Of a DNA stretch of 64,000 bases, positions 32,895 through 33,984 are shown in pieces; position 1 is the first letter of the stretch; each line of letters begins with the position of its first letter. The stretch comes from Avibacterium avium (GTDB lineage: Bacteria > Pseudomonadota > Gammaproteobacteria > Enterobacterales > Pasteurellaceae). The stretch covers positions 1,113,501 to 1,177,500 of the forward strand of contig NZ_UGSP01000001.1 of NCBI RefSeq assembly GCF_900454535.1, written 5' to 3'. The notes under the pieces are model-generated. The model was not told the origin of the DNA and ran no database searches. It was given only the letters and a program-made list of their open reading frames with translations. Made by a program: the position numbers and the translations under genes.

Positions 32895-33246
32895 TTTTAC
32901 TCCTTTGCATATTTAGTTTCTATTAAAGGCGAACTTGCGAACGCAAAGTTCGTCTTAAAGATGTTGTGAGTCCAAAAATTAACAAAAATTTTACAGACGG
33001 GATAAAGATATACCCTAGATTACCTTTCGTTGCAATCATTTTTTTCGATAAATCGCCTTAAAGTGCGGAAGAATTTTTGCGAATTTTTATGATTTCAAAC
33101 GAGAATAAATGAACTTTTGCACGAATTAACACACTAAGAAAGGCATCTATAAAATATCATTAGAGCAATTTGTTATCCGCTACTTATACGTTTCATTTAT
33201 AAGTATGGCTATTTTTATAAAAAATCATTCTACTTAAGGAGTTAAG
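32895..33246. other. Divergent control region, TAXI operon and comEA-like gene
   Basis: No gene is seen. The region is AT-rich, with one degenerate uptake sequence at 33060. TTTTGCGA at 33075-33082 equals the left half of a CRP-S (Sxy-dependent) competence site, but the right half is poor. TATAAA near 33148 could be a -10 for the comEA-like gene. I would not call the CRP-S site without testing. Confidence 0.3.
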
Positions 33247-33936
33247 ATGAAATTATTAAAATCTGTATTAGCACTAAGTTTTGCCGTTGCGACTTCAGGC
33301 GTTGCATTGGCAGAAAATCCATTGGCAAATGCAAAAGACGCCGTAAAAACAACTGCGCAATCAATGAAACAAGATAGCGCATCAAAAGCAAAAGATTTAG
33401 TCAAAGAACAAGCTACTAAAAAAGCAAATGCAGTGAAAGATGCGGCGAAAGAAAAAGCGAATGCTGCAAAATCATCGGCAAGTGAAAAAGTAGCAAAAGC
33501 TAAAGAGAAAGCGGCTGATACCAAAAGTGCGGTAGAAAATAAAGCAAAATCTGCCAAAGAATCTTTAACAGATAAAGCGTCAAAAGATAAATCGCTCACC
33601 GATAAAGTGAAAGAAAAAGCATCTGAAAAAGCGAAAGAGGCTAAAGAAAAAGCAAAAGATGCAAAAGAAAAAGTAAAATCAAGCGCAGATAACGCAAAAG
33701 ACAAAGCGAAATCATTAACGGAAAAAGCGAAGTCTTATGCAGGTGAAAAAATCAACATTAACAAAGCAGATGCGAAAACCTTACAAAACCTTTCAGGTAT
33801 TGGTGAAGCAAAAGCAAAAGCCATTGTTGAATACCGCGAAAAAGTAGGCAAAATTAAATCAGTAGAAGATTTGTCAAACATTTCAGGCATCGGTGCTGCA
33901 ACAATTGAAAAAATTGCTCCTTATTTAACATTCTAA
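33247..33936 (+). CDS. ComEA/ComE1-like DNA-binding protein with Lys/Ala-rich spacer
   Basis: Exported protein of 229 residues. A signal peptide (KLLKSVLALSFAVATSGVALA) is followed by about 145 residues made mostly of Ala, Lys, Glu, Asp and Ser in LEA-like repeats such as EKAKEAKEKAKDAKEKVK. The C-terminal ~60 residues hold a double helix-hairpin-helix of the ComEA type: INKADAKTLQNLSGIG and DLSNISGIGAATIEKI. ComEA proteins bind incoming DNA in the periplasm during transformation. Pasteurella ComE1 has also been reported to bind fibronectin. Other Pasteurellaceae ComE1 proteins are about half this length. AAGGAG precedes the ATG. Confidence 0.85.
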   Translation: MKLLKSVLALSFAVATSGVALAENPLANAKDAVKTTAQSMKQDSASKAKDLVKEQATKKANAVKDAAKEKANAAKSSASEKVAKAKEKAADTKSAVENKAKSAKESLTDKASKDKSLTDKVKEKASEKAKEAKEKAKDAKEKVKSSADNAKDKAKSLTEKAKSYAGEKININKADAKTLQNLSGIGEAKAKAIVEYREKVGKIKSVEDLSNISGIGAATIEKIAPYLTF

Positions 33937-33954: not shown

Positions 33955-33984
33955 AAAGGCTAATCAAGTGATTAGCCTTTTTTC
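33955..33984 (+). terminator. Terminator after the comEA-like gene
   Basis: AGGCTAATC and GATTAGCCT pair around AAGT, followed by Ts. An A-run on the left may let it serve putP on the other strand as well. Confidence 0.85.

Follow-up and report, generated by a model that had tools for sequence, protein, structure and literature searches.

The window analysed here is a stretch of 64,000 nucleotides from Avibacterium avium, in which a comEA-like gene encodes a protein with a long spacer (Table 1). The gene stands alone: its upstream neighbour is a divergent gene for a TRAP-type binding protein and its downstream neighbour a convergent putP-like gene (both named by eye). Since the former diverges, the latter converges past a terminator-like hairpin and the neighbourhoods vary between genera, an operon with the neighbours was ruled out. 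A 156-residue open reading frame on the reverse strand (33234–33704) was taken as a by-product of the lysine-rich codons of the comEA-like gene. The whole window harbours 51 exact copies of the uptake sequence AAGTGCGGT (0.46 expected), one of them at 33525–33533 within the spacer-coding region; given the 51 copies, this one is nothing special, and an uptake-sequence role for it was set aside.

Table 1. Features of the comEA-like gene and its surroundings (positions in the window)
Feature	Position	Strand	Basis and remarks
Second sigmaE-type match, GAACTT-N16-TCTTA	32931..32957	+	316 nt before ATG, in inverted repeat
Predicted sigmaE-type promoter, GAACTT-N16-ACTAA	33111..33137	+	9/10 positions; 136 nt before ATG; also in 4/4 Avibacterium relatives
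Ribosome binding site, AAGGAG	33236..33241	+	just 5' of ATG
comEA-like paralogue with long spacer, 229 aa	33247..33936	+	open reading frame from ATG; orthologues in relatives
Probable signal peptide, residues 1–22	33247..33312	+	translation, by eye; relatives start similarly
Lys/Ala-rich spacer, residues 23–167	33313..33747	+	composition, predicted helices 25–107 and 115–164, 11-residue period
(HhH)2 ComEA-type domain, residues ~166–229	33742..33933	+	profile, structure-database and fold matches
Terminator-like hairpin, bidirectional	33955..33980	.	separates comEA-like gene from convergent putP-like gene

Architecture of the encoded protein

The protein comprises (i) a probable signal peptide, recognised by eye from a lysine-rich n-region, a hydrophobic stretch and a terminal Ala-Leu-Ala (residues 20–22), (ii) a lysine/alanine-rich spacer and (iii) a C-terminal (HhH)2 domain. 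The ComEA-like nature of this domain, claimed in an earlier note on this DNA, is borne out by matches to HHH_3 of Pfam (residues 166–228, E=1.6e-22) and TIGR00426 of NCBIfam (73.9 bits, cut-off 53.1). The 'comE' model TIGR01259 does not discriminate, because the canonical ComE1 of the same genome (74.5 bits) fails the cut-off of 152.35 bits just as the window protein does (74.3 bits). Among solved structures, the nearest in sequence are those of an endonuclease/exonuclease/phosphatase family domain protein (9yi2, E=1.9e-17) and of ComEA ('ComE operon protein 1'; 8dss, E=2.7e-14), and a fold comparison ranks Geobacillus ComEA first (E=1.8e-3). The ComEA of Geobacillus/Bacillus (8dss) shares the (HhH)2 fold of the window protein's head; it is a receptor anchored in the membrane, its N-terminal region is folded, and it has no Lys/Ala rod.

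The 145-residue spacer consists of 27 % lysine and 23 % alanine, carries a net charge of +14 and contains one glycine, one proline and neither cysteine nor tryptophan. Its hydrophobicity is periodic with a maximum at 99 degrees per residue, a peak reached by none of 300 shuffles, and its sequence identity at a lag of 11 residues is 0.29. An AlphaFold2 model (single sequence, one protein; mean pLDDT 71) predicts two long helices in addition to the HhH bundle. Composition, periodicity and model agree with the positively charged, helical Lys/Ala spacer that the earlier note had read from the translation.

Among 75 relatives the spacer ranges from 62 to 227 residues (median 119), and its net charge is positive in every one (+4 to +44). 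Identity at lag 11 averages 0.25 over these relatives versus ~0.09–0.11 at lags 9, 10, 12 and 13, echoes at lags 18, 22 and 29, and is in excess in 66 of the 75 spacers. Amphipathicity near 100 degrees (p<0.05) is likewise found in 66/75, the median peak of 98 degrees being the value of an 11/3 helix. Nine spacers are exceptions; that of Mannheimia haemolytica, among six inspected singly, is not amphipathic at 100 degrees. Across the family the spacer sequence drifts while charge and 11-residue period persist. A frame artefact was rejected as the origin of the spacer, which is kept open and charged in the 75 relatives. Three loci of one genus (L108, L109 and L112; g36) encode extremely lysine-rich spacers resembling histone H1 tails.

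LEA group 3 proteins, apolipoproteins and alpha-synuclein contain Lys/Ala-rich amphipathic helices with an 11-residue period. The window spacer resembles LEA group 3 proteins in being an amphipathic helical repeat of 11 residues, but the window protein differs from all three in being an exported protein whose helix is joined to an HhH domain. Pfam LEA_4 is absent from the 12 families that the window protein matches at E<=0.1; the match to Pfam Apolipoprotein (E=0.037) stays below that family's cut-off.

Relation to canonical ComE1

In the genome of A. avium, four places are matched by TIGR00426; with 108.2 bits, a short comE1 (G000:C1:2027800-2027991) ranks highest. Its product has 114 residues from an ATG or 124 from an upstream TTG, and TTTTGCGATCTCGATCGTAAGA in front of the gene agrees with the CRP-S site in 18 of 20 positions. 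A canonical comE1 elsewhere in the genome, which the earlier note had named, together with irrelevance of the window gene for DNA uptake, as speaking against its own reading, is thus present. Canonical ComE1 proteins have a median length of 115 residues (45 loci, including L108, L109 and L112, which belong to the long group, as the tree agrees), and the short proteins of Mullen 2008 have 109–115; both values accord with the estimate that ComE1 is usually about half as long as the window protein.

Searching 140 Pasteurellaceae genomes with the window HhH domain yielded two separate score groups, while TIGR00426 itself matches all 140. The long gene is present in 80 of these genomes and 22 of 43 genera, a tally of the upper score group, with the boundary set between E=1.5e-16 and 1.2e-15, which could miss more divergent members. 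It occurs in 6/7 genomes of Avibacterium and 7/7 of Mannheimia (g28) as well as in contigs of H. parainfluenzae, Rodentibacter, Aggregatibacter, Necropsobacter, Muribacter and Actinobacillus, and is absent from all ten genomes of the H. influenzae group (genus g18), two of which agree with the H. influenzae comE1 primers in 32/32 bases. At the search threshold it was also not found in G004, a genome in which the A. pleuropneumoniae primers fit the canonical locus almost completely. The same holds for one Avibacterium genome (G025, genus g1; 2.9 Mb), which has a canonical comE1 with a CRP-S site of 19/20. Two long-family members included in the tally (G017:C1:260157-260348 and G023:C112:13575-13763) contain one in-frame stop each and are possibly decaying, and one genome carries two copies with equal scores ~56 kb apart (G091:C1:4076 and 59904). 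Among the matches listed for 394 genomes of the order, scores of at least 110 bits are confined to Pasteurellaceae, the best match outside the family reaching 91.9 bits.

In a tree of the HhH domain (129 rows; its 62 columns are few for that number), 76 long rows lie on one side of a branch (support 99/94) and 42 canonical rows form a branch of their own (support 100/95). Six loci were left out of one or other count owing to truncation, duplication or a wrong start (L002, which is the L035 locus, L040, L111, L074, L060 and L071). As judged from these comparisons, the window gene is almost certainly a distinct Pasteurellaceae paralogue and not the canonical ComE1. Both families, the latter represented by HI1008 of H. 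influenzae and PM1665 of P. multocida, are exported and end in an (HhH)2 domain. However, ComE1 combines a median length of 115 residues with a CRP-S site and the first hairpin GIG-A-K-K, whereas the window family, a clade apart, has a sigmaE-type promoter, GIG-E-x-K and a spacer of 62–227 residues. The idea of an A. avium ComE1 that differs by its unusual spacer was not supported, the canonical gene with its CRP-S site lying elsewhere; domain, spacer and relative length stand.

The two families also differ in the lysines of the first hairpin. In V. cholerae ComEA, K62 and K63 form the DNA-binding pair, K63 being the more important, according to the available part of PMC3879209, from the text of which alone the numbering was transferred by placing G60 on the last glycine of the first GIG. 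The window protein (GIG-E-A-K) has the equivalent of K63 and lacks that of K62. In the long family, whose HhH domains are 51–93 % identical to that of the window protein, K63 is present in 78/78 members, K62 in 25/78 and an acidic residue 61 in 75/78 (E-A-K, E-K-K, E-V-K and others). By comparison, all 38 readable rows of the 42 canonical proteins have K-K, 36 of them A-K-K (unreadable: L028, L029, L030 and L117). This lysine pattern suggests that DNA binding by the long-family head is weaker, not absent.

One long-family protein appears in the literature under the name ComE1. Mullen et al. 2008 assayed ComE1 homologues of five further species for binding; as far as the accessible part of PMC2601033 reports, these included MhORF35 ('M. 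haemolytica ComE1'), a protein of 211 residues with 41 % identity to PM1665. The published MhORF35 primers match two loci of M. haemolytica (L085 and L130; DSM 10531) in 36/36 bases with an amplicon of 600 bp, and the frame at these loci gives 211 residues from a GTG. Because primers and size agree, MhORF35 is, on this evidence, a member of the long family, although its authors named it a homologue of ComE1. A canonical ComE1 of 112 residues (L223) is likewise encoded by the M. haemolytica genome, with TTTTTCGATCTGTGTCGAAAAA 101 nt upstream, a CRP-S site close to that of H. parasuis comE1 as given in the part of PMC5809987 at hand. Primers for H. influenzae and A. actinomycetemcomitans match canonical loci, as does the A. 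pleuropneumoniae pair (L225 in G004, 17/18 and 15/16); no good match was obtained for the M. succiniproducens pair among the genomes compared.

To our knowledge, MhORF35 is the only long-family member tested in vitro, and since the M. haemolytica spacer lacks amphipathicity at 100 degrees, other members may behave differently. The binding of DNA and fibronectin, which the earlier note had proposed to examine for spacer and HhH part separately, is on record for this orthologue as a whole protein with a divided outcome: the GST fusion bound fibronectin and DNA in ELISA, at levels below those of the P. multocida, H. influenzae, A. pleuropneumoniae and A. actinomycetemcomitans proteins, but after removal of GST no DNA binding was seen by SPR, as stated in the available text of PMC2601033. 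Since the M. succiniproducens protein also bound DNA poorly (46 uM; same part of PMC2601033), weak DNA binding is no peculiarity of the paralogue.

Upstream regions and predicted regulation

Upstream regions of 42 canonical comE1 loci (selected or returned by searches, a subset of the 140 genomes) agree with the CRP-S site in 17.8 of 20 positions on average, 40 of them in at least 16. In contrast, those of 76 long genes average 11.2, versus 11.1–11.2 in shuffles, and a single locus (L041) reaches 16. Upstream of the window gene no CRP-S site was found (12/20, shuffle maximum 12).

The long genes share a sigmaE-type pattern instead, scored as GAACTT-N15..17-TCTNA over 10 positions. At least nine positions agree in 70 of 75 long upstream regions and all ten in 31, versus 4.8 % and 0.1 %, respectively, of shuffled regions; the counts for the long genes are inflated by kinship and come from the same upstream regions on which the motif was first noticed. 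None of the 42 canonical regions reaches nine. The five failing loci are L074, with its start wrong or cut, and L081, L082, L083 and L105, each at eight. When 300 permuted motifs were applied to 74 long upstream regions, they scored 2.7 on average (95th percentile 8, maximum 40) versus 70 for the real motif. The site occurs in at least one member of 20/21 testable genera; gene neighbourhoods differ by genus while the promoter stays, the largest shared neighbour comprising 22 loci.

In front of the window gene the -10 element is ACTAA rather than TCTNA, as in all four other Avibacterium loci, and a single match of 9/10 such as this one is found in ~5 % of shuffled upstream regions. A second match further upstream, between the divergent genes, is overlapped by the inverted repeat GAACTTGCGAACGCAAAGTTCGTCTTA. 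Match and repeat were not found in the other Avibacterium loci compared, and the second match was for this reason rejected as main promoter.

An independent check on the pattern is provided by a search of the own genome with GAACTT-N16-WCTNA, which returned 12 exact matches (four for the reversed pattern). Two of them precede the window gene, and others lie upstream of rpoE (86 nt), rpoH (129 nt) and skp (99 nt), the product of the last scoring below the cut-off of 237 bits of the Skp model and above that of the Pfam OmpH-like model. Not all 12 are promoters, since one (L216) apparently lies inside a gene (by eye) and four (L209, L212, L213 and L217) have no nearby start (by script). A further match is situated 64 nt upstream of L208:1086-1463 (-), which encodes a probably exported protein of 126 residues without a Pfam or NCBIfam match and may be an unnamed sigmaE target. 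The genes rpoE, rpoH and skp are classical sigmaE targets, so that the window gene shares its promoter pattern with the sigmaE regulon of the same genome, which encodes RpoE (one match to the RpoE model) and RseA. The pattern GAACTT-16bp-TCTTA moreover matches the consensus of A. pleuropneumoniae RpoE (sigmaE) as given in the accessible part of PMC9577009. Taken together, these promoter comparisons make control of the window gene by sigmaE a very likely prediction. We know of no ComEA-type protein among the members of a sigmaE regulon. Nothing on the expression of the long family was found in the open literature, and the portions available of PMC13157587, PMC3405016, PMC3328466, PMC4446954, PMC5013584, PMC2752462, PMC3671958, PMC4644294, PMC12616744 and PMC1626085 contain nothing on a long family distinct from ComE1.

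Possible functions

The best overall explanation, held with moderate confidence, is that the gene encodes an envelope-stress protein with an affinity for anionic surfaces and a weak one for DNA. Under the control of sigmaE (RpoE), the envelope-stress factor, rather than of the competence regulators CRP/Sxy, it would be expressed and its product exported upon envelope damage. In a manner comparable to LEA-type helices, the cationic amphipathic rod could then settle on anionic surfaces of the envelope, i.e., lipopolysaccharide, phospholipid or peptidoglycan, while the HhH head may weakly hold double-stranded DNA leaking or sticking there. The stressed envelope would thereby be protected or patched, and DNA be held rather than pulled in. 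This role in the envelope and in holding DNA is put forward tentatively; that the gene is not needed for ordinary transformation appears probable. One may further speculate, though this is rather unlikely, that the protein acts as a stress-induced quarantine for DNA, its cationic hendecad helix coating the outer membrane inside or outside and its ComEA head capturing DNA at damaged surfaces or tethering matrix DNA. If true, a sigmaE response would be coupled to DNA handling independently of competence in about half of the Pasteurellaceae genera.

Retention of charge and 11-residue period despite drift in sequence and length (62–227 residues), together with the sigmaE-type promoter, would also suit a pure LEA-like envelope protectant, in which the helix would be the working part and the HhH head a remnant that binds protein or wall but has no function with DNA, as the SPR result for MhORF35 in the part of PMC2601033 at hand might suggest. 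The invariant K63 (78/78) and the conserved HhH domain argue against such a remnant, as does the missing LEA_4 match, and we consider this explanation unlikely. Improbable, too, is a surface adhesin whose rod lets the HhH head pass the outer layers and reach fibronectin or matrix DNA, with envelope stress caused by the host as the switch. The ELISA binding of MhORF35 is in line with it, but was weak, and DNA binding was absent by SPR without GST (both from the available text of PMC2601033); furthermore, no anchor or outer-membrane domain is among the Pfam matches, no lipobox was recognised by eye, and localisation data for the long family were not found in the open literature.

An accessory role in DNA uptake, the reading of the earlier note, in which a further ComEA would pull DNA across the periplasm like a ratchet and the rod would extend its reach through peptidoglycan, seems quite unlikely. 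Members of the H. influenzae genus group transform, yet the long gene is absent from all ten of their genomes; its upstream regions score at shuffle level for CRP-S (one at 16), its promoter is that of another regulon, and K62 is mostly lost. In its favour, the (HhH)2 domain is complete with its K63, the spacer is cationic, and ComEA homologues, even bare (HhH)2, can replace V. cholerae ComEA according to the accessible text of PMC3879209.

A final alternative concerns the switch, namely recognition of the GAACTT promoter by a different ECF sigma factor, e.g., RpoE2, and thus a response to oxidative instead of envelope stress: ECF sigma factors do share AAC-type -35 elements. This is highly improbable, since the pattern marks rpoE, rpoH and skp in the own genome, where the RpoE model has a single match, and since the H. 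influenzae group, in which RpoE2 was described (PMC7907618, as far as available), lacks the long gene.

With an envelope-stress protein as the preferred explanation, the parts of the system are of known kinds, while their combination and regulation appear to be new: among open papers, none was found that tells the two families apart or mentions control of a ComEA-type gene by sigmaE. An unidentified comE1 paralogue was suspected in H. influenzae by Sinha et al., as reported in the available part of PMC3879209. The long family is such a paralogue but is absent from the H. influenzae group, and the case of Sinha et al. is therefore not answered by it. The odd result of 2008, a ComE1 without measurable DNA binding by SPR, may possibly find its reason in the protein being the other paralogue. 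'Pasteurellaceae ComE1' splits into two families with different predicted switches, and a related protein on a charged rod, whose predicted switch is of the envelope-damage type, should therefore not be treated as one protein with ComE1. If sigmaE control holds, a DNA-binding fold would have been recruited to envelope defence.
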